NCBI RefSeq assembly: GCF_026712245.1
Contig: NZ_JAPPUY010000002.1
Span: 959,196 to 1,023,195 of the forward strand
Length of the DNA stretch: 64,000 nt
Origin: Roseateles hydrophilus
GTDB taxonomy: Bacteria > Pseudomonadota > Gammaproteobacteria > Burkholderiales > Burkholderiaceae_C
Reading direction: 5' to 3'
A program made the position numbers and the translations under genes. A model generated the notes under the pieces. That model made no database searches. It was not told the DNA's origin and saw only the letters and a list, made by a program, of their open reading frames with translations. Shown here piece by piece: positions 42,301-64,000 of this stretch (the first letter of the stretch is position 1; the number at the start of each line of letters is the position of its first letter).

Positions 42301-43651
42301 TGGGCACGATGTCCACGCGCTCGAAACGGCCGGTGTAGCTGCCGGGCACGTCAGGCGTGCCGGCGGAGTAGCCGCTGAAGGCAGGCGCAGCCCGGTCCAG
42401 CGGCAGCGTGCAGCCGCCAGCGCTGACGGTGTAGGTGAAGTAGACCGTGGCCGTGGTGTCCACGCCATGCGGGGCGTAGATCGTCACGGTGCGGTTGCCG
42501 GTGGCGGTGTAGCCGGTCGAGGTCTTGGCGCTGATCTGCTCCGCGATCTTGGCGCCCAGTGTGTCGCGGCTGTTGGTGGCCCCGGTGTTGGCATTGAGCA
42601 GGTTCACGCCGCCCACCGTGATGGCGGTCATGTTGATGTAGCAATTCAGGCGGCCGATGACGAAGGTCACGCTGGCACGCGTGGGCGTGTCGCCCTTCAC
42701 GCCGGCCGAGAAGAACTTGGTGGGAAAGCGCGCATGGGCGAAGGTGCCGTTGCGTGTGGCCTGGCATGCGGCCACGCCAGGCGTGGACGCACGGGCGTCA
42801 GCGTCGGTCTTGCACCAGCGCAGCGGCGCCGGGATGGTGTAGACGCCGCCAGCGGTGCCCCGGCAGTCGCGCAGGCTCACGTCGTTGCAGTACTCGGCGG
42901 CAATGATGCGGTAGTAGTGAGGGCCGAAGCTGCGTTCTGCCGTGGTGGCGTTGTCAGGCGCGCCGGTGGCAACCATGCCAGTGCCCGAGGCCACGGTGGG
43001 GTTGTATTTCACGTAGGCCTTGCCGCCCACATTGCCGGGCAGCACGTAGTTGTCGTTGCGCAGGCAGTCCGTGAAGGTGTCATCCACACACCAGGCGGTG
43101 TCCGGGAACTGGGTGGTCAGGTCGATGCTGTTGGTGTTCTGGATGTTGTACGCATCGTTCTTCACCACGGTCCAGTTGGTCGTGTTCGCGCGCGACTGGC
43201 TGGGCCAGGGGGTACCGTTGGCACGAACCGGGGGCTTGTAGTAGACGGCCGGGTCGTAGGCCAGGCCGTTGAAGCCTGCCGTCAGGAAGGGCGGCTGGCC
43301 GCGCAGATTGCCGAAGGGGGCAGCCCCCGTCCAGCAGGCGGCAGAGTTGTTGCCGCCGATGCAGCAGGTGTTGTTGAAGTCGCCGCTGTTGACGGGCGTG
43401 GCGCCCGTGCTGCGGCACAGCCTGGGGTCCGGGTCACCATCGCCGTTGATGTGATCAGGCAGGAAGTCAAAGCCCATCGAGCCCGAGTCGTCCAGGATGA
43501 ACATCAGGTTGGTCTTGACCGCATCCGGGTTGGCCACCACCAACGGCGACTGCGCGATGTCGGTGACCGCTGCCAGCGCCGGGCGGCTCAGGACGAGCGC
43601 CCCCAGGCTGCAGACCAGGGCAAAAATCAGGCGGGATGAACTGAACTTCAT
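39377..43651 (-). CDS. pilY1: PilY1, type IV pilus tip adhesin/assembly factor
   Basis: 1424 residues from ATG at 43651 (MKFSSSRLIFALVC), with GAGGTC upstream; 43672 is an alternative. Signal peptide ends PALAAV. A von Willebrand A-like N-terminal region has MIDAS residues D54-x-S56-x-S58 (LDDSGSMG) and an acidic Asp-rich loop (DHINGDGDPDPR). A large variable middle follows, then the C-terminal PilY1 beta-propeller with NMVYVAANDGMLHAFN, GSGYNNVSPGD and the calcium-site-like AGDNLGNLWRFDI. Located at the tip of pili, it primes assembly with the minor pilins and mediates adhesion in characterised species. Confidence 0.93.
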   Translation of the reverse strand: MKFSSSRLIFALVCSLGALVLSRPALAAVTDIAQSPLVVANPDAVKTNLMFILDDSGSMGFDFLPDHINGDGDPDPRLCRSTGATPVNSGDFNNTCCIGGNNSAACWTGAAPFGNLRGQPPFLTAGFNGLAYDPAVYYKPPVRANGTPWPSQSRANTTNWTVVKNDAYNIQNTNSIDLTTQFPDTAWCVDDTFTDCLRNDNYVLPGNVGGKAYVKYNPTVASGTGMVATGAPDNATTAERSFGPHYYRIIAAEYCNDVSLRDCRGTAGGVYTIPAPLRWCKTDADARASTPGVAACQATRNGTFAHARFPTKFFSAGVKGDTPTRASVTFVIGRLNCYINMTAITVGGVNLLNANTGATNSRDTLGAKIAEQISAKTSTGYTATGNRTVTIYAPHGVDTTATVYFTYTVSAGGCTLPLDRAAPAFSGYSAGTPDVPGSYTGRFERVDIVPTRTTYPKASGRVDCTTAATSCSYDEEMTNFANWWTYYHTRMQSMKSSASLAFAGIGNNRRVGYMSINNSTGTDYLNLDTFEDVASMAYTQKSKWFAKLVAARPFRSTPLRTALSTAGKLFAGKLNGTTFNGSTVVDPVQYSCQRNFTILSTDGFWNEGSNPTKPDGSEIGEQDSTLPRPAYDGTATSNTLADVAAYYASTDLRTGATGSADCRSGSGTAADVCGNSTNTTVKPDEVQSMKTFTLGLGASGYMQFSPTYLTDVTGDFYSVREGVAPNPAAGVCSWQTSGNCNWPQPVNNTLTTIDDLWHAAVNGGGTYFSASNPTSLYTGLSSAIKALDGQTGAAAAASVSNPNVSAGDNKVFVSNFVSAEWSGELRSLQMNIETGAIDLDSPNWSARNLLNSNASRNILMFAGAEPNKLKPFTWSSMTSTERANFTLSHITASGRALTQFCSFGPYCLSSGDQSSAAGEPLVNFLRGDRTHEGDISAPAKYFRQRNYVLGDIISSEAAYVTKPRLAYVDAGYDSFKSDAAGRTNMVYVAANDGMLHAFNADTGVEAWAFVPTAVLPKLYKLADKQYATQHEYFVDGSPISRDVYVDGRWRTLLVGGQGAGGRSYYALDVTDPEAPKALWEFTDTNLGLTFGKPEIGKLKDGTWVVMFGSGYNNVSPGDGVGRLYIVNAITGALIRTISTGAGNSTTPAGLAHITAWVDDSKVDNTKQRVYAGDNLGNLWRFDINNTLGVAGYDAQRLATLRSKTGLAQPITSRPELGLVDEHTMVYVGTGRYLGQSDLTDSGGQTVYGIKDKLDTTDIGDPRNAGNAFVEQTLTAGTCPTGMTGCKAGQVIRTNNAPKPVDLSVNGGWFVDLPQARERVNTDPQLVLGTLIVMSNVVDAGNICTAGGSSWANYFDYRSGGPVDAKLTSVFLDSMSTSMTVSSLVNGDIVGTVVCTTGCVRQEDPLIKSATAGTRRVSWRDLLQQ

Positions 43652-53723: not shown

Positions 53724-54665
53724 ATGAACCAGCTCGACCAACTCAAGTCCTTCACCACCGTGGTTGCAGACACCGGCAACTTCCTGCAGCTGGCGCAGTT
53801 CGCGCCGCGCGACGCGACGACCAACCCTTCGCTGATCCTGAAGGCCGTGCAGTCGCCTGATTACGCGCCGCTGCTGAAGGAGACGGTTGACGCCCACCGC
53901 GGCAAGCCGCTGGACGAGATCGTCGACCACGTGCTGGTGCGCTTCGGCCTGGAGATCCTGAAGGTCGTGCCGGGCCGCGTGTCGACCGAGGTCGATGCAC
54001 GCCTGTCGTTCGACAAGGCCGCCAGCCTGTTCCGCGCGCGCCGCATCATCGGCCTGTACGAAGCCGCCGGTATCTCGCGCGAGCGCGTGCTGATTAAGCT
54101 GGCGTCCACGTGGGAAGGCATCCAGGCCGCCGCCGAGCTGGAGCGCGAAGGCATCCGCTGCAACCTGACGCTGCTGTTCGCGTTCGCGCAGGCCGTGGCC
54201 TGCGGCGAGGCCAAGGTGCAGCTGATCTCGCCCTTCGTCGGCCGCATCTACGACTGGTACAAGAAGCAGGCCGGCGCCAGCTGGGACGAGGCCGCGATGG
54301 CGGGCGTCAACGACCCGGGCGTGAAGTCGGTGTCGCAGATCTACGCCTACTTCAAGCAGCACGGCATCAAGACCGAGGTGATGGGCGCAAGCTTCCGCAA
54401 CATCGGCCAGATCCAGGCACTGGCGGGCTGCGACCTGCTGACCATCAGCCCCGATCTGCTGGCGCAGCTGCAGGCCGCAGACGCCAAGCTGGAGCGCGTG
54501 CTGGACCCGGCCAAGGCCGCAGCCATGCCCGCCATCCACCTGGATGAGGCCGCCTTCCGCTTCGCGCTGAACGAGGACGCGATGGCCACCGAGAAGCTGG
54601 CCGAAGGCATCCGCCTGTTCGCCGTCGACGCCGGCAAGCTCGACAAGCTCATCGAGGCGGCCTGA
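53724..54665 (+). CDS. tal: Transaldolase
   Basis: 313 residues from ATG at 53724 ([20 protein letters not shown]). Contains [12 protein letters not shown] and the Schiff-base lysine (about K125) in [12 protein letters not shown], followed by [12 protein letters not shown] and [10 protein letters not shown]. Class I transaldolase of the non-oxidative pentose phosphate pathway. Starts an apparent tal-pgi-HAD operon divergent from zwf. Confidence 0.96.
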
Positions 54666-54666
54666 C

Positions 54667-56289
54667 ATGACGATGCGCTGCGACCTCTCCCCCGTTTGGG
54701 CCGAACTGCAAGCCCACTACGCCGCGAGTGGTCGCGGCTTCGACATCCGCGAGGCCTTCCGGGCTGATGCGGGCCGTTTCGGCGCGCTGTCGTTCGAAGC
54801 GCCCGAGGTCTTTGCCGACCTGTCCAAGAACCGCATCGACGCGCCCACGCTGGCGCTGCTGCTGAAGCTGGCCGCCGACTGCGGCCTGGCCGCGCGCCGC
54901 GACGCGCTGCTGCGCGGTGAGCCGGTCAACCACACCGAAGGCCGCGCGGTGCTGCACACGGCGCTGCGCGCGCCGGCCGGCAGCGACGCGCCGTTCAATG
55001 CCGACGTGCAGGCCTCGCTGGACGCGATGCTGGCCTTTGCCGAGAGCGTGCGGCGCGGCGAGCGCGGTGACATCACCGATGTGGTCCACATCGGCATCGG
55101 CGGCAGCGACCTGGGCCCGGCGATGGTTGTGCAGGCGTTGCAGGCGTTCACCCGCCGCGACCTGAAGCTGCATTTCGTCTCCAACGTCGACGGCCACGAC
55201 CTGGCGCCGGTGCTGGCAGGCCTGGACGCGAAGCGCACGCTGTTCGTCATCGCGTCCAAGACCTTCACGACGCAGGAAACGCTGGCCAACGCGCAGGCCG
55301 CCAAGGCCTGGTTCCTGAGCCAGGGCGGCACGGACGTGGCGCGCCACTTCGTCGCCACCAGCAGCAACACCGCTGCGGCGGCCGCGTTCGGCATCGACAC
55401 CGCCTTCGGCTTCTGGGACTGGGTGGGCGGCCGCTACTCCCTGTGGTCGGTGATCGGCCTGCCCATCGCCATTGCCGTCGGCGCCGACAACTTCCGCCAA
55501 CTGCTGGCCGGCGCGCATGCGATGGACCACCACTTCGCCACCGCACCGCTGGCGCAGAACCTGCCGGTGCTGCTGGGCCTGGTCGACATCTGGTATCGCA
55601 ACTTCCACGGCTTCACGAGCCGCAGCGTGGCGCCCTACCACCAGGGGCTGCGCCGTCTGCCTGCCTATCTGCAGCAACTGGAGATGGAGAGCAACGGCAA
55701 GGGCGTGGACCTGGACGGCAACGCACTGGCCGTGGCCACGTCGCCGGTCGTCTGGGGCGAAGCCGGCACCAACGGCCAGCATGCCTACTTCCAGATGCTG
55801 CACCAGGGCACGGACGTCATCCCCGTCGAGTTCATCGCCGTGAAGCGCCCCAACCATGGCGTGACCGGCGAGCTGGCCGAGAAGCTGGCCGACCAGCACC
55901 GCAAGCTGCTGGCCAACTGCCTGGCGCAGAGCCAGGCGCTGATGCAGGGCAAGACCGCCGCCGAGGCGCTGACCGAGAAGGCGCCGACGGCCTCGGCCAC
56001 GCTGGACCGAGATGTGCTGTCCCGCCACCGCAGCTTCCCTGGCAATCGTCCGAGCACGACGCTGGTGCTGGACGCGCTGACGCCGCGCTCGCTGGGTGCG
56101 CTGATTGCGCTGTACGAGCACCGCGTCTTTGTGACTGGCGCGCTGTGGGGCATCAACAGCTTCGACCAGTGGGGCGTGGAGCTCGGCAAGGCGCTGTGCA
56201 ACCAGTTGCTGCCGCGGCTGGATTCCGGCGACACGGCGGGCCTGGACGGCTCCACGGCCGGCCTGCTGGCTCGCCTGACCTCGGCATGA
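54667..56289 (+). CDS. pgi: Glucose-6-phosphate isomerase
   Basis: 540 residues, typical length. Motifs: VHIGIGGSDLGP, the phosphate-binding SKTFTTQETLANA, catalytic base region WGEAGTNGQHAYFQMLHQG, and the C-terminal LWGINSFDQWGVELGK signature. One base after tal. Interconverts glucose-6-phosphate and fructose-6-phosphate. Confidence 0.96.
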   Translation: MTMRCDLSPVWAELQAHYAASGRGFDIREAFRADAGRFGALSFEAPEVFADLSKNRIDAPTLALLLKLAADCGLAARRDALLRGEPVNHTEGRAVLHTALRAPAGSDAPFNADVQASLDAMLAFAESVRRGERGDITDVVHIGIGGSDLGPAMVVQALQAFTRRDLKLHFVSNVDGHDLAPVLAGLDAKRTLFVIASKTFTTQETLANAQAAKAWFLSQGGTDVARHFVATSSNTAAAAAFGIDTAFGFWDWVGGRYSLWSVIGLPIAIAVGADNFRQLLAGAHAMDHHFATAPLAQNLPVLLGLVDIWYRNFHGFTSRSVAPYHQGLRRLPAYLQQLEMESNGKGVDLDGNALAVATSPVVWGEAGTNGQHAYFQMLHQGTDVIPVEFIAVKRPNHGVTGELAEKLADQHRKLLANCLAQSQALMQGKTAAEALTEKAPTASATLDRDVLSRHRSFPGNRPSTTLVLDALTPRSLGALIALYEHRVFVTGALWGINSFDQWGVELGKALCNQLLPRLDSGDTAGLDGSTAGLLARLTSA

Positions 56290-56906
56290 AGATCGTCTTC
56301 GACTTCGGCGGCGTCGTCTTCCGCTGGCACCCGGCCAGCTTCCTGGCGCGCGTCTGGCCGCACCGCATCGAGACGCTGGAGCAGGGCGCCCAGGTCGCGG
56401 CGGTGTTCTTCCAGAACTACGGCGGCGACTGGGGCCTGTTCGACCAGGGCTTGATCGGTGCCGACGAAGTGGTGCGCCGCATCTCGGCGCGCACCGGCTG
56501 GCCGCGTGGCGAGGTCGAGGCCGTCGTGCGCGCTGTGCCTGACGAGTTGATGGCCATTCCGGCCAGTGTCGTGCTGATCCGCGATCTCCTGGCCGCCGGG
56601 CACACCTTGCATTTCCTGTCCAACATGCCCGAGCCTTATGCCGACCACCTCAGCCGGACGTACCCGCTGAACGAGTGGTTCACATCGGGCATCTTCTCGG
56701 GCCGCGTCAAGCAGAGCAAGCCGGGGGCGGAGATCTACGCCATGGCCGAACGCCAGTTCGGCGCCACGCCATCTGAGTTGCTGTTCATCGACGACCATCC
56801 GGTCAACATCGATGCCGCACTGGCGCGCGACTGGCAGGCCTTCCTGTTCACGGATGCGGCCAGCGCCCGGCGTGAGTTGGTGTCTCGCCGCCTGCTGAAC
56901 GCCTGA
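56286..56906 (+). CDS. HAD-family phosphatase (YihX-like)
   Basis: 206 residues from ATG at 56286, overlapping pgi by 4 bases. HAD motifs: IVFDFGGVVF (nucleophile Asp, with the D-x-G variant seen in YihX), HFLSNMPE (motif II), KQSKPGAEIY (motif III Lys) and LFIDDHPVNIDAA (motif IV). YihX of E. coli removes phosphate from glucose-1-phosphate; the operon with pgi fits a sugar phosphate substrate, but specificity cannot be read from sequence. Confidence 0.85.
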   Translation: MKIVFDFGGVVFRWHPASFLARVWPHRIETLEQGAQVAAVFFQNYGGDWGLFDQGLIGADEVVRRISARTGWPRGEVEAVVRAVPDELMAIPASVVLIRDLLAAGHTLHFLSNMPEPYADHLSRTYPLNEWFTSGIFSGRVKQSKPGAEIYAMAERQFGATPSELLFIDDHPVNIDAALARDWQAFLFTDAASARRELVSRRLLNA

Positions 56907-56933
56907 GGCGTGGCCTGCCGGCAGGGCCGGCGC

Positions 56934-57146
56934 CTAGTGCAGGTGCTGGCCGTCGGGGCCGAGTTCGTCGGGGTCTTGCGGCGGTGCGGCCGGCACGCGG
57001 AAGCTTTCGCTGGCCCACGCGCCCAGGTCGATCTGTCGGCAGCGTTCGCTGCAGAACGGCCGCCACTTGTTGCTGGGCGCGAAGACGCTGTCGCCGCTGC
57101 ACTGCGGGCAACGCACCAGGCGCTCCCCTTGGGCGTTCTTCTTCAT
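56934..57146 (-). CDS. yacG: YacG, zinc-ribbon DNA gyrase inhibitor
   Basis: 70 residues from ATG at 57146 overlapping the zapD stop (ATGA). Zinc ligands C-x2-C in RCPQCSG and C-x3-C in [15 protein letters not shown], which together are diagnostic of YacG. Binds GyrB and inhibits gyrase in E. coli. The C-terminal tail is acidic. Confidence 0.93.
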
Positions 57147-57898
57147 TGGCACAGCGTCAGTTCGAAACCGGTGTCCTCGGGGGCCAGCTTCAGCCGGCCT
57201 TCCTCGTCCTGCCGCATCAGCCGGATGGACACCATCAGCCGGTGGCCGGTGATCTCGGGGATGAGGCCCAGGCTGGGATCGATGCGCATGCGCAGCAGCT
57301 GGTAGACGCGGCCGGCTGGCAGGCTCTGCTGGAACTGGCCCGCATTGGCGGCGACCTTGTGTGGCGTGCCTGAATCGCGCAGCAGGCCCAGCAGCAGTTG
57401 CAGCGCCTCGGCCAGCGGCATCAGCGACTGCGCCCAGGCCATCAGGTCCTTGCGGCGGCGGACGGGCAGCAGTTGCTGCCAGTGATAGTAGGCCGGCAGG
57501 TCGAACTCGCAGGTCCCGCCCGGGATGCTGATGCGGCTGCGGATGCTCATCAGCCACTCATTGCTGCTCAGCGCGGCGCCGGTCTTGCCGCTTTGTGCGT
57601 TCAGCCGCTGGAAGGCGCCGTCGAGGCGGGCGATGACTTCGTCCAGACGCGCCTCGTCCACACCAGGGCTGCCGCGGTAGGCGCTGAACTGGGCCTTGTG
57701 CTTTTCCAGTTCCTTCAGCAGGTCGCTCTTCAGGTCGGCACGCGAGGCGACGTCGAGGATCTCGAACAGGGAGACCAGCGCGAAGTGGTGGTCCAGCGCG
57801 GGGTCGCGGGCCATCAGCGCACCGAAGCGGTCAAACAGGTGTTCGAGGCGAAGCATCGTGCGGATGCTTTCGTTGAACGGGTACTCGTACAGGACCAC
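57143..57898 (-). CDS. zapD: ZapD, cell division protein (FtsZ bundling)
   Basis: 251 residues. Starts [22 protein letters not shown], the hallmark of ZapD/YacF, followed by [20 protein letters not shown], and C-terminal [11 protein letters not shown]. It cross-links FtsZ filaments in the Z ring. Between coaE and yacG as in E. coli. Confidence 0.94.
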
Positions 57899-57912
57899 GG
57901 CGCAGGCTTCAG

Positions 57913-58518
57913 TCAGGGCGTTGTCATTGTTTCACAGCCCCAGCGTGCGGCCAGGCTCATGACCTCGCTTCTGAGCGTGGCCAGCGGCAGGCCATCGTTC
58001 AGGATGATGGCGTCAGCGGCAGCGCGGCGGGCTTCGCGTGATGTCTGTGCGGCCAGTGCGCCGTCGACGCGCTCTGGCGTCCAGCCCGGGCGTTGCAGCA
58101 CGCGGGCCCGCTGCGTGTCCACCGTGCAGTCGATGATCAGCACGCGGGAGACCCGCGACCGCCAGCGGCCGGACTCCACCAGCAGGGGCACGTCGTACAC
58201 CACCAGCGGTGCGTGGGCCGCTTCGGCCTGGGCCAGGGCCTCGGCTGTGATCAACGGATGCAGGATGGCTTCCAGGCGGCGTTTGGCAGAGCCGTCCGAG
58301 AAGGCGAGGGCGCGCATGCGATCGCGGTCCAGCGCGCCATCTGCCGTCACGAACTCTGCGCCGAATTGCTGGGCGATTGCGGGCATGCCGGCACCGCCCG
58401 GTGCGGTCAGCGCGCGCGAGATGGCGTCGGTGTCGACGATGGTGGCCCCAGCCTCGCGTAGAAATCCGGCGACCGTGCTCTTGCCGGAGCCGATGCCGCC
58501 CGTCAGCCCGATGCGCAT
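57913..58518 (-). CDS. coaE: Dephospho-CoA kinase
   Basis: 201 residues from ATG at 58518. P-loop GLTGGIGSGKSTVAG at the N-terminus, then DTDAISRALT, HPLI and VYDVPLLVESGRW. Last step of coenzyme A synthesis. Eleven bases after pilD on the same strand. Confidence 0.95.
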   Translation of the reverse strand: MRIGLTGGIGSGKSTVAGFLREAGATIVDTDAISRALTAPGGAGMPAIAQQFGAEFVTADGALDRDRMRALAFSDGSAKRRLEAILHPLITAEALAQAEAAHAPLVVYDVPLLVESGRWRSRVSRVLIIDCTVDTQRARVLQRPGWTPERVDGALAAQTSREARRAAADAIILNDGLPLATLRSEVMSLAARWGCETMTTP

Positions 58519-58529
58519 GGTCAAGCGGC

Positions 58530-59474
58530 TCAACCCAGGTAGAGGCCAAGTATGCCCAGCAGCGTGGACTGCCCGACGAACAGGGCCACAAGGCCGCCGC
58601 CCACCAGGTAGGGGCCGAATGGGATTGGCACCTCACGCCCATGGCCTCGGAACAGGATCAGGCAGATGCCGACCACAGCCCCCACGGCGGACGACAGCAG
58701 GATGATGGGCAGCAGCATGGGCCAGCCCAGCCAGGCGCCCATGGCGGCGAGCAGCTTGAAGTCGCCATAGCCCATGCCTTCCCGGTTGCGCACCAGCTTG
58801 TAGAGCCAGTAGATGGACCACAGCGACAGGTAGCCTGCCGCCGCGCCGATGACGGCTTTGTCCAGCGGCACCGTCCAGCCCAGGGCTGAGGCGCCCAGCC
58901 CGCCCCAGAGCAGCGGCAGCGTGATGTCGTCAGGCAGGTATTGCGTGTCCAGATCGATCATCGCCAGTGCGATCAGCGCTGCGACGAAGCCGCACCACAG
59001 CAGCGTTGCCGGCTGCGCACCGAAGCGCCAGGACAGGGCAGCGAACGCGAGACCGGTGATCAGCTCGATGAGGGGGTAGCGCTTGGAAATGGGCGCTTTG
59101 CACGACGCGCACTTGCCGCCAAGCCGCAGCCAGCCGACGAGCGGCAGGTTCTCATGCCAGCGCAGTTGGTGGCCGCAATGCGGGCAGCGCGAGCGCGGGG
59201 TGGCGATGCCGAAGTGGGGCAGCGATTCGATGCGGGTGCCGAAGTCATCAACCGCCTTGGCCAGCTTGGCGGTCTCGGCTTGCGGCAACTGGGCCGTGCG
59301 TGCCATCGCGGCGGCATCGGTCAGCTGGGCGGCCGACTCATGAACCCACTGTCGCTCCAGCATCAGCGGCAGCCGGTGGATGACGACGTTCAGGAAGCTG
59401 CCGATGCACAGCCCGAAGATGCCCAGCACCCAGGGGGAGAGCCAGAGGGACCAGTCGATGGTGGCGAGGGACAT
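58530..59474 (-). CDS. pilD: PilD, prepilin peptidase / N-methyltransferase
   Basis: 314 residues from ATG at 59474 ([11 protein letters not shown]). N-terminal membrane segment with [12 protein letters not shown], then a cytoplasmic loop with four zinc cysteines ([12 protein letters not shown] and [12 protein letters not shown]), and multiple helices carrying catalytic aspartates in [12 protein letters not shown] and the GxGD motif [12 protein letters not shown]. It cleaves and N-methylates pilins; it is the only such enzyme in the window and so probably serves GspG-K too. The stretch between residues about 55 and 100 is longer than in some homologues. Confidence 0.95.
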
Positions 59475-59544
59475 GATGCGCGGCGGGGTCAGGTGGAACG
59501 CGGGTTGCAATCTACCCGCATTCCGAGCCGGCGCCGCGCTCGGA

Positions 59545-60762
59545 TCACACGACCGCGCCGATCTTGAAGATGGGCAGGTACATGGACACGACGATGCCAC
59601 CGATCAGGCCGCCCAGGATGACGATGATGAAGGGTTCCATCAGGCTGGACAGCGCCTTCACAGCCTCGTCCACCTCGTCCTCATAGAACTCGGCCGCCTT
59701 GGCCAGCATGTGGTCCAGCGAGCCGGATTCTTCGCCGATGGAGGCCATCTGCAGCACCATGGTCGGGAAGATGCCGGTCGTCTGCATGGACGTCGTCAGT
59801 GCCGAACCGGTAGAGACGTCGCGCTGGATCTGCTCGGTGGCTTCCTGGAACACCGCGTTGCCCGAGGCGCCGCCCACAGAGTCGAGTGCTTCCACCAGCG
59901 GCACACCGGCCGCGAACATCGTCGACAGCGTGCGCGTCCAGCGCGCAACGGCGGACTTGAACATCAGGTCACCGAAGACCGGGATCTTCAGCAGGATCCG
60001 GTCCATGCGCTTTTGCATCTTCACGGAGCGCTTCCAGCTCTGGATGAAGAAGTACAGGCCGCCGCCGATGCTGCCGAAGATCAGGTACCAGTAGCTGACG
60101 AAGAACTCCGACATCGCCATGACGATCAGCGTGGGCGCTGGCAGGTCAGCGCCGAAGGACGCGAACACATCCTTGAACGCCGGGATCACGAAGATCATGA
60201 TGATCGCGACGACGATGAAGGCCACGGTCAGCACGGCGATGGGGTAGGTCAGCGCCGACTTGATCTTGTTCTTCAGCGCGACCGTCTTCTCCTGGTAGAT
60301 CGCCAAGCGGTCCAGCAGTGCTTCCAAAATGCCGCCAGCCTCACCGGCCTCGACGAGGTTGCAGTACAGCGCGTCGAAGTACATCGGATGCTTGCGGAAC
60401 GCAGCGGACAGGCTGGTGCCGGTTTCAACGTCCTGGCGGATGTCATTCAGCAGCCGGGTCAGGCGCGGGTTGGTGGCGCCGCGGGCGACGATGTCAAAGG
60501 CCTGCAACAGCGGCACGCCTGCGCGCATCATCGTGGCGAGTTGCCGTGTGAAAACGGCAATGTCCTTTTGCTTGATGGATGTGCCGCCGCTGGCACGCCG
60601 CTTCTTGACCTTGTTGACCAGGATGCCCTGACGCCGCAGCGTCGCGCTGACCATGGCCTCACCGCCGGCACGTAACTCGCCCTTGACGATCTTGCCGTTG
60701 CGGTCCTTGCCCTCCCATTCGAAGACAAAGTCCTTGACGCCTTTTGCTGCGGCGGTGGCCAT
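59545..60762 (-). CDS. pilC: PilC, type IV pilus inner-membrane platform protein
   Basis: 405 residues, GspF/PilC family with two repeats of a four-helix cytoplasmic domain plus three membrane helices. Features: [20 protein letters not shown] and its repeat [20 protein letters not shown], and [20 protein letters not shown]. Binds the ATPases PilB/PilT. Twenty bases after pilB on the minus strand. Confidence 0.95.
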
Positions 60763-60782
60763 GCACTCTCCTCGCGACTGTT

Positions 60783-62504
60783 TTATTCGTTGGTGGCGGA
60801 CAGGACTTCTTCCAGCGTCGTGACGCCGGCACGAACCTTGACCAAGCCCGACTGCCGCAGATCACGCACGCCTTCCTTCTTGGCCTGCGCGGCGATGTCC
60901 ATCGCCGTTCCCTCGGCGAGGATGATGCGCTGGATGTCCTCCGTGATGGGCATCACTTGGTAAAGGCCTACGCGGCCGCGGTAACCGTTTGTGCAGTTGC
61001 TGCAGCCCACGGCGCGGTAGGGCTTCCAGCTGCCGTCGAAGTCTTCCTCGACGAAGCCGGCCTTCAGCATGGCATCGCGCGGGTACTCGGCCGGGGCCTT
61101 GCAGTTCTCGCACAGCCGGCGCACCAGGCGCTGCGCGGTGATCAGCAGCACGCTGGACGCGATGTTGAACGGTGCAACGCCCATGTTCAGCAGGCGTGTC
61201 AGCGTCTTGGGCGCATCGTTGGTGTGCAGCGTGGACATGACCATGTGGCCCGTCTGTGCCGCCTTGATCGCAATGTCGGCGGTCTCCAGGTCGCGGATTT
61301 CGCCGACCATGATGATGTCCGGATCCTGACGCAGGAAGGACTTCAACGCGGCCGAGAAGTTCAGGCCCGCCTTGTCGTTCACGTTGACCTGGTTGATGCC
61401 CGGCAGGTTGATTTCCGCCGGATCCTCGACGGTCGAGATGTTGACGCCAGGCTGATTCAGGATGTTCAGGCAGGTGTAGAGCGACACCGTCTTGCCCGAG
61501 CCGGTCGGGCCGGTCACCAGCACCATGCCGTACGGGCGGTAGATGGCGGCCAGCAACCGTTCCTTCTCGATCTTCTCGTAGCCGAGCGCGTCGATGCCGA
61601 GCTTGGCGGAGGAGGAGTCCAGGATACGGATCACGATCTTTTCGCCAAAGAGCGTGGGCAGCGTGCTGACGCGGAAGTCGATGGACTTGCTGCCGAACTT
61701 GAGCTTCATGCGCCCGTCTTGCGGCACGCGGCGCTCGGCGATGTCCAGCCGTGAGATGACCTTGATGCGCGAGGACAGCTTGTCCTTGATGGCGATGGGT
61801 GGCTGCGTGATCTCCCGCAGTTCCCCGTCGACGCGGAAGCGCACGCGGTAATGGAACTCGTAGGGCTCGAAGTGCAGGTCGGAGGCGCGCAGGTTGATGG
61901 CGTCCACCAACATCTTCTGTAGGAAGCGCACGACGGGCGCGTCTTCCACGTCGGCGAGCTCGGCCGCTTCCTGTTGCGGTGTGGCGTCGTCCTCGGCGAT
62001 GTCGAAATCGAACTCGCCGCCGGCGATCGATTCGAGCGTTTCCGTCGCACTGACCCCGGTGGTGCTGAGCAGCTTGGTCAGCTTGTCATGTTCGACGATG
62101 ACCCACTCGGGCTGGAGTTGCGTTGCGAACTTGATGCGCTCGATGACTTCCAGGTCGGTGGGGTCGGCGCCACCGACGAACAGCCGGTTGCCGCGTCGTG
62201 ACAGCGCCACGACCTGGTACTGCTGTGCGAGCTTGCCGTCGATGACGTTCTGCGGCAGCTTCTGCGGGTCCATCGCCGACAGATCCAGCAGCGGCAGCGC
62301 CAATGCGCTGGACAGCGTGTGAGCCAGATCAGCGGCGGAAACCTGTCCGCTGGCGATCACCGCGTTGACGAAGCTGGTCTTCTTCTCGCGTGCCTGCCGC
62401 ACGAGCTCTTCAGCGGCCTTGACGGGCAATTTGCCCGCGTGCACGAGCATGCGCGCAACTCCTGAGAGGGCGGACTGATGCGGCTCGGCGAGCGTGGTTT
62501 CCAC
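60783..62504 (-). CDS. pilB: PilB, type IV pilus extension ATPase
   Basis: 573 residues with a GTG start at 62504 and no strong ribosome site, so the start may be slightly different. MshEN-like N-terminal domain, then Walker A TGPTGSGKTVSLYTCLN, Asp box, Walker B IIMVGEIRDLETADIAI and His box MSTLHTNDAPKTLTRL. A zinc-binding pair of CxxC motifs (CENCKAP; GCSNCTNGYRGR) is typical of PilB. Hexameric motor driving pilin addition. First gene of pilB-pilC-pilD-coaE-zapD-yacG. Confidence 0.96.
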   Translation of the reverse strand: METTLAEPHQSALSGVARMLVHAGKLPVKAAEELVRQAREKKTSFVNAVIASGQVSAADLAHTLSSALALPLLDLSAMDPQKLPQNVIDGKLAQQYQVVALSRRGNRLFVGGADPTDLEVIERIKFATQLQPEWVIVEHDKLTKLLSTTGVSATETLESIAGGEFDFDIAEDDATPQQEAAELADVEDAPVVRFLQKMLVDAINLRASDLHFEPYEFHYRVRFRVDGELREITQPPIAIKDKLSSRIKVISRLDIAERRVPQDGRMKLKFGSKSIDFRVSTLPTLFGEKIVIRILDSSSAKLGIDALGYEKIEKERLLAAIYRPYGMVLVTGPTGSGKTVSLYTCLNILNQPGVNISTVEDPAEINLPGINQVNVNDKAGLNFSAALKSFLRQDPDIIMVGEIRDLETADIAIKAAQTGHMVMSTLHTNDAPKTLTRLLNMGVAPFNIASSVLLITAQRLVRRLCENCKAPAEYPRDAMLKAGFVEEDFDGSWKPYRAVGCSNCTNGYRGRVGLYQVMPITEDIQRIILAEGTAMDIAAQAKKEGVRDLRQSGLVKVRAGVTTLEEVLSATNE

Positions 62505-62623
62505 TGCGTTGGCGTCCGTGACGCGAGGAACTGAAGTCCGCTGATTGTGCCAGCGGGCGGCGGCTCGGCAGCCGGTGGTGCCGAGCGCGTGGCGGCGTAT
62601 CCTTGCCAGGGGGATTCCTGGCC

Positions 62624-62821
62624 ATGAATGACGCTTTGTTGCCGCAAGTTCTGCTCAGGCCTGAGGTGCCGGCGCAGCAGGACCTTGAACTCGCCACCGA
62701 CGGTGTGTTGCGCTATGTGTGGCGCAGCGCCTTTGGGGATATGTTGATCGAGGTGATCAATGGCGCGCCATACGTCAACGGTCAGCGCGTCGAGGCGGCG
62801 CCGATGTTGCGTCGGCGCTGA
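62624..62821 (+). CDS. Small protein of unknown function
   Basis: 65 residues from ATG at 62624, preceded by a purine-rich AGGGGG about 13 bases upstream. Begins MNDALLPQVLLRPEVP and contains VLRYVWRSAFGDMLIEVIN then GAPYVNGQRVE, suggestive of a small beta-rich fold. No signal or membrane segment. It abuts the convergent HD-domain gene exactly. I do not recognise a family; coding potential is plausible from codon usage and the ribosome site. Confidence 0.5.
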   Translation: MNDALLPQVLLRPEVPAQQDLELATDGVLRYVWRSAFGDMLIEVINGAPYVNGQRVEAAPMLRRR

Positions 62822-63457
62822 TCACTGTGGCTGAAGTCGACGCAGTTCGCACAGGAAGCGGTCGGCGGCGACGTCCGATGGCCAGGGCTCCCAGGCTTGG
62901 CCGCCGTAGATGGCCTGCAGCGGGTCTTCTGTCAGTACGCGCTCCTCAATGCCCAGCACCTCGCGCACTTCTTGCTGCGACCATCCCGTGCAGTGCACGG
63001 CCTCGGAGGCGGCGGCGATGCGGTCCGCCAGTTTGTGCACGCGATGAGAGGCTTCCGTCCATGCTGGCAGCTCGTAGCGATGCGCAATGGCGCTCATCAG
63101 CCGGCTAGCTACTTGCTGAAATGGCGCGCCAAGGACGCGCTTGAGTGGCGAGATGCAGTCGAAACCGAGAAAGCCTTCCTCGGCGTCATGCAGCAGCTCG
63201 GCACGCGCCTCGGCGTTGCTCAAGGCGTGTGGCGCGCTGTTGCGGCGCAATGCCAGCACCAGCAGGGAGTGCTGCGCGACGGACAGTGGCCACGGCCAAA
63301 CGGACTCGCCGCCCCACCGGTAGGTTCGTGCCAAGCGTGCTGCGAGGTCGAGGTCTGTCCAGGCGTCGGACCGTGGGTTGATGAGATCCAGTGCTGCTCC
63401 CGAGGGAAGCCGTATCCACGCGCGCGGCCGGTCGGATGTGTCCATGCTGCGCAGCAT
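62822..63457 (-). CDS. HD-domain phosphohydrolase
   Basis: 211 residues (a second ATG at 63445 would give 207). HD-superfamily metal residues are visible as the His in WPLSVAQHSLLVLAL and the HD pair in AELLHDAEEGFLGFD, with a later Asp in HKLADRIAAAS. Resembles the YfbR-like 5'-nucleotidase group that hydrolyses deoxynucleoside monophosphates, but without clear family-specific residues. It is the last ordinary chromosomal gene before the tRNA-Pro junction. Confidence 0.75.
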   Translation of the reverse strand: MLRSMDTSDRPRAWIRLPSGAALDLINPRSDAWTDLDLAARLARTYRWGGESVWPWPLSVAQHSLLVLALRRNSAPHALSNAEARAELLHDAEEGFLGFDCISPLKRVLGAPFQQVASRLMSAIAHRYELPAWTEASHRVHKLADRIAAASEAVHCTGWSQQEVREVLGIEERVLTEDPLQAIYGGQAWEPWPSDVAADRFLCELRRLQPQ

Positions 63458-63536
63458 AGAGGCGCCGGGTGAGGTCCGCGGTTCGTGTTCAAGCGGTTTT
63501 TGCCCGTTCGGGCCTGAGCGGCGCGAGGCGCAGAAA

Positions 63537-63567
63537 GCAAAACAGCCGCATCGCTGCGGCTGTTTTG
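63537..63567 (-). terminator. Intrinsic terminator downstream of the tRNA-Pro 3' end
   Basis: AAAACAGCCGCA / TCGC / TGCGGCTGTTTT, a strong symmetrical stem with A and T tracts on both sides. On the minus strand it lies about 25 bases beyond the tRNA CCA end and would have ended the original tRNA transcript; it could also serve the HD gene region. Confidence 0.85.
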
Positions 63568-63591
63568 AGTCCTCGGCTTACAAGGAAATCC

Positions 63592-63638
63592 TGGTCGGGG
63601 TGAGAGGATTCGAACCTCCGGCCTCTACGTCCCGAACG
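63592..63638 (-). tRNA. 3' fragment of tRNA-Pro(CGG), probable attachment-site half
   Basis: Minus strand reads from inside the anticodon arm (CGTTCGGGACGTAG, anticodon CGG) through the variable region and T arm (GGAGGTTCGAATCCTCT) to the acceptor 3' strand CACCCCGA and CCA. The 5' half (acceptor, D arm and the upstream anticodon stem) is absent: right of 63638 the sequence becomes unrelated. It is therefore a partial gene, with the break at the anticodon stem-loop, a common integrase crossover point. The restored full tRNA would be expected at the far end of an inserted element outside the window. Confidence 0.8.
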
Positions 63639-63689
63639 CTTAGCCCTTGTGCCGTTTTTACTGGTGGTTTAACGTGGTTCCTGATTATT

Positions 63690-63717
63690 TGGGCCATTCT
63701 TGGGCCATTGGGCCATC
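63690..63717. repeat. Three direct TGGGCCAT repeats beside the tRNA junction
   Basis: TGGGCCATT at 63690 and 63701 and TGGGCCATC at 63709, with 11- and 8-base periods, between the tRNA fragment and the integrase-like start. Their place fits arm-type integrase or excisionase binding sites of an attachment region. Confidence 0.6.
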
Positions 63718-63727
63718 AGGGAGACGT

Positions 63728-63850
63728 ATGGGGCAGATCACAAAGCGCGGCGAGTACCAGTGGCGGGCCAAGGTCATCCGAAGCCAATCAGGGCAGCGAC
63801 CTCTCCGCACAAGTCTTGAGCCCAAAGGTCCGGTCGGCGCCAGTTACTGA
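63728..63850 (+). pseudogene. Truncated N-terminus of a phage-type tyrosine integrase
   Basis: Ribosome site AGGGAGA precedes ATG at 63728. The 40-residue product begins MGQITKRGEYQWRAKVIRSQ, the arm-binding N-terminal domain pattern common in tRNA-targeting tyrosine integrases, then departs from the family after about residue 30 and stops at 63850. No catalytic domain follows in any frame before the window end. It looks like an integrase gene broken by deletion or rearrangement, 90 bases from the tRNA-Pro fragment. Confidence 0.6.
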
Positions 63851-64000
63851 ACAGCCGAGGACAGCCCCGAGCGCCTCTGCCAGTTTCCCCGGCATCCGTG
63901 CGACAGCCCTGGCAGGCGTCTTCAGCAAGCACTCCTACGACGGAACGCCCAAGACCTACTTCCCCCGCGTGGCAGTCACGGTCACGGACTGGTCCCGCAG
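63816..64000 (+). CDS. Partial open frame of unknown function at window end
   Basis: A frame open to the window end, possible TTG start at 63816, overlapping the integrase remnant in another frame. The readable end has a composed, protein-like stretch (TALAGVFSKHSYDGTPKTYF, then PRVAVTVTDWSR). I do not recognise it. It belongs to the integrated element if that interpretation is right. Confidence 0.35.
   Translation, partial: MSPKVRSAPVTEQPRTAPSASASFPGIRATALAGVFSKHSYDGTPKTYFPRVAVTVTDWSR

Follow-up and report, generated by a model that had tools for sequence, protein, structure and literature searches.

A displaced tRNA-Pro(CGG) fragment in Roseateles hydrophilus and the decayed tRNA-integrated island, likely carrying nitrate respiration genes, that it bounds

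The tRNA-Pro(CGG) fragment and its chromosomal site

The window, that is, the whole 64,000-nucleotide stretch of DNA analysed here, covers positions 959196-1023195 of contig C6 in the genome of Roseateles hydrophilus (G000), and its base 64000 is the last base of that contig. The chromosomal left flank consists of pilB (60783-62504, minus strand), with pilC (59545-60762) and then a pilD-like open reading frame (58530-59600) beyond it; these pil names are presumptive and given from sequence, not from a family scan. Near the right edge, positions 63592-63638 of the minus strand hold a displaced 3' fragment of a tRNA-Pro(CGG) gene. The fragment is identical to nucleotides 31-77 of the intact 77-nt tRNA-Pro(cgg) gene at C1:41846-41922, thus to its final 47 bases, and it comprises the two innermost bases of the anticodon stem on the 5' side, the CGG loop, and everything onward to CCA. 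A first-pass annotation, made from the sequence of the window, had described only the 3' part of a tRNA-Pro gene, from the anticodon loop to CCA, and this holds. ARAGORN calls no tRNA in the window and Rfam has no match in its last 2 kb, which is to be expected of an incomplete tRNA gene.

The fragment lies within a 53-bp segment (63586-63638, minus strand) that we read as the left attachment-site core and that is repeated exactly, in direct orientation, at C1:41840-41892. The longest exact match between the neighbouring part of the window (54001-63585) and the plus strand of C1:1-60000 is 18 bp, and the 53-bp repeat is therefore not a product of chance. Both a second copy of the 47-base segment and an intact tRNA-Pro(CGG) had been predicted by the first-pass annotation, and both are present on C1, where genes that we take, from sequence and gene order, to be ispB and then rplU lie on the 5' side of the tRNA. 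When window positions 63001-63638 are joined in silico to C1:41893-42500, one complete tRNA-Pro(cgg) results, identical to the C1 copy; positions 63001-64000 alone yield no intact tRNA-Pro in the same test. An occupied tRNA site is expected to have this structure, and the extent of the repeat suggests an integration site of the anticodon type.

Relatives without the insert are informative here. In 8 of the 20 genomes of the genus (G002, G004, G008, G009, G010, G013, G016, and G019), ispB, tRNA-Pro, and pilB are directly adjacent. No pilB was seen within the examined stretch (1.5 kb or less) past the 3' end of the tRNA in 11 others, including G000 itself, and in G011 the contig breaks, with a fragment just past pilB. 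The orientation and side of the intact tRNA and the displaced fragment of R. hydrophilus fit each other through the conserved order ispB-tRNA-pilB, but the two copies are found on two contigs. The C1 copy and the empty sites of relatives support the earlier proposal that an element inserted inside the tRNA gene and left the intact copy at its other end.

Between the upstream region of pilB and the left attachment site lies about 1 kb of extra DNA (62554-63585), which is not found in the empty sites of relatives. Its two open reading frames, of 72 and 211 amino acids, have no Pfam match; the longer one (62822-63457) was considered by eye as an HD-domain protein, a candidate that was dropped since Pfam gives it no family. 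Beside the fragment, a terminator-like stretch is similar (59 bp, 85%) to DNA on the element side of the G012 tRNA. This extra DNA may be the remnant of an earlier insertion.

Arm repeats, the integrase remnant and a complete relative

Past the fragment, the motif TGGGCCAT occurs three times on the plus strand, at 63690, 63701, and 63709 (63690-63716). These are the short direct repeats noticed at first pass, and they are predicted to be arm-binding repeats of an integrase; the same repeat stands beside three intact integrase relatives, and TGGGCCATTCTTGGGCCAT is also present at C1:41733, about 100 bp inside the opposite element end. An open reading frame of the plus strand (63728-63850) follows. 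Its first 16 codons (63728-63775) match intact tyrosine integrases, the remainder is unrelated to them, and a stop lies at 63848-63850. The first-pass annotation had spoken of an integrase-like start: the ATG at 63728 is genuine, yet the gene breaks off after codon 16. For the 40-amino-acid integrase start, neither the plasmids searched nor Pfam gave a match, and it is matched in 4 of 299 genomes of the family, our own included. The other three genomes (G195, G204, and G186) all carry a full-length integrase beside a tRNA-Pro fragment, and in each an intact gene for 365 or 368 amino acids begins right after the 3' fragment and the TGGGCCATTCTTGGGCCAT repeat.

One of these, G195, holds a complete element of 21.6 kb with both ends on one contig (core at 21684, intact tRNA-Pro at 43300) and with type I restriction genes among its cargo. 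Its integrase of 365 amino acids is intact and belongs to the Pfam family Phage_integrase; in phage records it has distant relatives only, all under 60% identity, and plasmid records likewise hold distant ones only (2 of 2505 at 60-80%). Over 190 bp at its left end, the G195 element is 96.8% identical to the window, and over 128 bp at its right end it is 90.6% identical to C1:41708-41835. The G195 hsdM also matches a remnant of the C-terminal part of hsdM at C1:2572-3042 (81% over 266 bp). From the end matches it follows that the C6 and C1 ends correspond to the two ends of one element.

It could be objected that the 47 bases are merely a tRNA fragment orphaned long ago, to which no element belongs. 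A 3' tRNA-Pro fragment of this kind does exist in G010 (C37:13276-13327), on another contig than the empty tRNA-Pro site of that genome, and no integrase was seen near it; we read it as a decayed or rearranged remnant. The first-pass annotation had held that relatives with the same fragment and no element would speak against its proposal, and the G010 fragment is such a find in part, although it does not change the case for R. hydrophilus. Here, the fragment sits at the expected chromosomal junction, its arm repeats and integrase start are nearly those of an intact element end (184 of 190 bases), and the intact tRNA on C1 has element-like DNA on its 3' side, so that an orphan origin is scarcely credible.

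The similarity to G195 stops abruptly. From 63586 up to codon 16 the 184 matching bases are found, and of the next 85 bases only 21 match. What follows (63776-64000, plus strand) is a probable deletion junction and then an incomplete gene, cut off by the end of the contig, that we take, by eye, to be lipoprotein-like; positions 63888-63999 are 97% identical to C8:636298-636409 and 90% identical to a gene of the intact G195 element, a gene whose G195 version has no Pfam match. Relative to G195, the window lacks the remainder of the integrase, a small regulator, and the beginning of the lipoprotein-like gene, a pattern consistent with a single internal deletion. Might the broken integrase instead be an assembly error at the contig end, the real gene being intact? 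Only 225 bases lie past the break, and the last 112 of them are a repeat common to C8 at 97%. On the other side, the sequences that meet at the break both belong to the element and follow each other as they do in G195 (integrase first, lipoprotein-like gene second), which is what a deletion would leave behind, and none of the 10 Phage_integrase matches of the whole genome resembles the G195 integrase at an E value of 1e-3 or better. We therefore regard such an error as unlikely, if worth bearing in mind. As assembled, with part of the element missing from the assembly, no intact integrase gene is present inside it.

On these grounds, the element is filed as a decayed relative of tRNA-targeted integrative islands of the tyrosine integrase type. 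Since its integrase is truncated, this copy is probably stuck: the island is predicted to be unable to move by itself, and we infer that it can no longer excise unless it is helped by another integrase.

The end of C6 and the start of C1 are unjoined in the assembly, with a gap between them. C6 ends in the repeat common to C8, and C1 starts with a 130-bp repeat (C1:1-130) that is also found at another contig end (C2:5761-5890, 99% identical) and in two weaker copies on C7. The assembly stops inside the element at this C1/C2 repeat. C2 was considered as a piece bridging C6 and C1 and was rejected, as the end of C2 and the start of C1 enter the same 130-bp repeat in the same direction. C6 and C1 would be joined through the element itself.

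Predicted nitrate respiration genes on the contig with the intact tRNA

The DNA of C1 beside the right end is a likely island of 41.8 kb. Our own script predicted 44 genes in C1:1-41845, of which 39 were scanned against protein families. From the left, the order is an Abi-like protein, the hsdM remnant, MobB, a NarX/NarQ-like sensor, a NarL-like regulator, and NarK-type transporters; then NarG, NarH, NarJ, NarI, a PpiC-like isomerase, and a carbonic-anhydrase-like protein. These are followed by UbiU, UbiV, UbiT, a DUF1513 protein, an indolepyruvate/phenylpyruvate decarboxylase, NrdD, NrdG2, MoaA, and NnrS, and finally by a Crp/FtrB-like regulator, SirB, a hemerythrin domain, and an IS3 transposase adjoining the tRNA. 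NarG (2150 bits against a cut-off of 1084), NarH, NarJ, NarI, UbiU, UbiV, UbiT, NrdD, NrdG2, MoaA, and MobB score over their NCBIfam cut-offs, and the sensor and NarK proteins score below theirs. Among the 39 scanned genes, none was named as a nitrite reductase, a chlorite dismutase, or a relaxase, type IV secretion, or other conjugation gene. Judged from family membership, the cargo is predicted to allow anaerobic growth by nitrate respiration. The first-pass annotation, which had placed accessory cargo beyond the right edge and named defence, catabolism, and conjugation as candidates, was right about accessory genes, which do lie on the contig beside the intact tRNA, but the predicted function is a different one.

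NarG, UbiU, and NrdD each exceed the family cut-off at one place in the genome only, namely in this C1 stretch. The stretch thus indicates a likely way in which a bacterium could acquire nitrate respiration together with its supporting biosynthesis in a single transfer.

The genome G014, from another species, shares nearly all of C1:16863-40095, the right 23 kb from narJ toward the tRNA, at 95.8-99.2% over three contigs: 97.9% over C1:16863-26303 (9.4 kb, carrying ubiUVT), 95.8% over C1:26468-38714, and 99.2% over C1:38469-40095. The chromosome of G014 is 84-85% identical to that of G000 on both sides of the site. Measured per kb, identity ranges from 88.0 to 100% in the island and from 76.8 to 91.2% in the chromosome, the lowest island patches overlapping the highest chromosomal ones. 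At the tRNA, identity changes within a single G014 contig, C121, and the IS3 copy of G000 is absent there. It should be mentioned that G014 is a draft of 240 contigs whose island contigs begin inside narJ, so that the comparison covers C1:16863-40095 and not the stretch from narX to narH; the draft has no narG over the cut-off, and its left island end was not found. A metagenome chimera was considered as the source of the shift in identity; the span of C121 and the patchiness argue against a plain contaminant resembling G000, and a chimera may still account for the shift. Spread between species is found for C1:16863-40095, and these 23 kb appear to have been transferred recently. Along the G014 contigs C152 and C204, the match to G000 varies in patches between 88 and 100% per kb, a picture that recombination of some parts could produce.

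Cargo of this type is not confined to the element. Of the 20 genus genomes, 7 have UbiU and NrdD, 8 have a full-length narG, and another has a partial one; a similar nar cluster stands elsewhere in the chromosomes of congeners, as in G002, where it lies at 803 kb of C1 and the tRNA at 1,520 kb. From these related clusters, the cargo probably came from within the genus. The same clusters can be read in another way: the left end would be an element boundary, but the nitrate genes of C1 would be ordinary chromosome of the genus that a rearrangement moved beside the tRNA. Eight other genus genomes (G016 only in part) indeed have a narG at other places whose DNA is 89-91% identical, which is near the 84-88% of ispB in the seven genomes where narG is full-length, and in G003 and G006 the gene order runs on through ubiUVT and nrdDG as on C1. 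However, on C1 the cargo runs without a break into the right element end, where the arm repeat and then the tRNA follow; the near-identity to G014 (96-99% over C1:16863-40095) stands against 84-85% for the chromosome; and beyond the cargo lies the hsdM remnant that matches a gene of the compact G195 element. A rearrangement of this kind is thus improbable.

The best explanation, which we hold with considerable confidence, is that an element integrated in tRNA-Pro(CGG) has its left attachment site at window positions 63586-63638, likely finishes at the tRNA at C1:41846-41922, and likely includes the adjoining 41.8 kb with its predicted nitrate respiration genes. As far as the anatomy reveals the mechanism, a tyrosine integrase of the kind that relatives keep intact would have acted on a circle bearing the final ~50 bp of the tRNA and would have recombined it with the chromosomal gene at the anticodon stem-loop. 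The working tRNA would have been rebuilt at the ispB end, and the old 3' part would have been left at the pilB end. The island would have arrived by means of this integrase.

The tRNA-Pro site in other genomes and related islands

Fragments with only the 3' part of tRNA-Pro are present in at least 13 of 100 genomes, our own included. Among the matches listed, 8 genomes have both copies on a single contig, and in all 8 the fragment follows the tRNA at its 3' end, in the same orientation. Elements at this site carry different arm repeats, TGGGCCATTCT, GGCACAGAATT, ACCACCGATTT, and TGGGACATCTT, each read as two copies 11 bp apart; the window has a third copy of its own repeat 8 bp on.

In 35 of the 100 genomes narG exceeds the cut-off, and in many of these narG and the tRNA lie on different contigs. 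Among the matches listed, G000 and G068 are the only genomes in which both are on one contig with narG within 60 kb on the 3' side. G068, which belongs to another family, has a separate nar operon with pilB on one side and tRNA-Pro/ispB on the other (C2:867680-909385); its NarG is 65% identical to ours, and no second tRNA fragment was found. From distance alone, ~0.5 further such cases are expected by chance, and G068 is therefore suggestive only.

The closest known system is the perchlorate reduction genomic island (PRI) of Azospira, in which an insertion at a proline tRNA beside ispB, like the one found here, is described (PMC4623255). In the part of that account consulted, ispB and pilSR are among the flanking genes, a 48-bp repeat marks the other end, the site is empty in A. 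oryzae 6a3, and a different island occupies the same tRNA in other Rhodocyclaceae; the PRI has a xerD-like recombinase inside and respiratory cargo (PMC4623255). The likeness is one of site description. In contrast to the PRI, the element of R. hydrophilus has, among the genes scanned, NarG as its terminal reductase in place of perchlorate reductase, its host is not Azospira, its integrase is broken, and it carries O2-independent ubiquinone and anaerobic ribonucleotide reductase genes in addition.

In the portion of the Islander work consulted, tRNA islands are delimited by a regenerated tRNA and a displaced 3' fragment, as here (PMC4383910). Our element differs in that its ends are on two contigs and its integrase is truncated, and for these reasons the Islander integrase filter could reject it. 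Mobile nitrate respiration is shared with the nitrate conjugative element of Thermus, which is plasmid-borne and for which the portion consulted describes no tRNA integration; narG in Thermales is there inferred to be vertically inherited (PMC10989939). In Sphingopyxis granuli TFA, an alphaproteobacterium that grows anaerobically on nitrate, strain-exclusive nar genes are described as acquired, and the consulted part of that paper describes no matching tRNA-Pro boundary (PMC4741004). Among the titles and abstracts listed from the open-access literature, we found no report of a nar island at tRNA-Pro/ispB.

The element belongs to a known class, the tRNA-integrated islands, and its respiratory cargo is unusually complete. 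What is new is an O2-independent ubiquinone pathway on a mobile-type element together with its own respiratory enzyme. In the consulted part of a recent survey, ubiTUV is described as generally vertical, with one captured transfer (PMC11707229), whereas ubiUVT lies here on DNA that is 97.9% identical over 9.4 kb between species whose chromosomes differ by ~15%.

More tentatively, and with more doubt than belief, it can be speculated that tRNA-Pro(CGG) between ispB and pilB is a recurrent dock that moves whole packages for anaerobic respiration between betaproteobacteria in one step. Such a package would unite a terminal reductase with genes for the molybdenum cofactor, for O2-independent synthesis of ubiquinone, and for anaerobic synthesis of DNA precursors, and the three cases would be perchlorate in Azospira, nitrate in R. 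hydrophilus, and the separate nar operon of G068. If this were true, the supposedly vertical ubiTUV pathway would have been made mobile. The likeness of the site to that of the Azospira perchlorate island makes the idea testable.

Two further stretches were observed. In C8:601065-636976, a second island-like stretch of the same genome, an integrase stands beside a presumably YchF-like gene, and there are also a run of very large genes and a lipoprotein-like gene related to that of the element in the window; the stretch ends near what appears, by eye, to be an rRNA operon. In G007, of the same genus, a 47-kb stretch without nar genes (C14:8014-55262) runs from a tRNA-Pro fragment to the intact tRNA-Pro and has different arm repeats.
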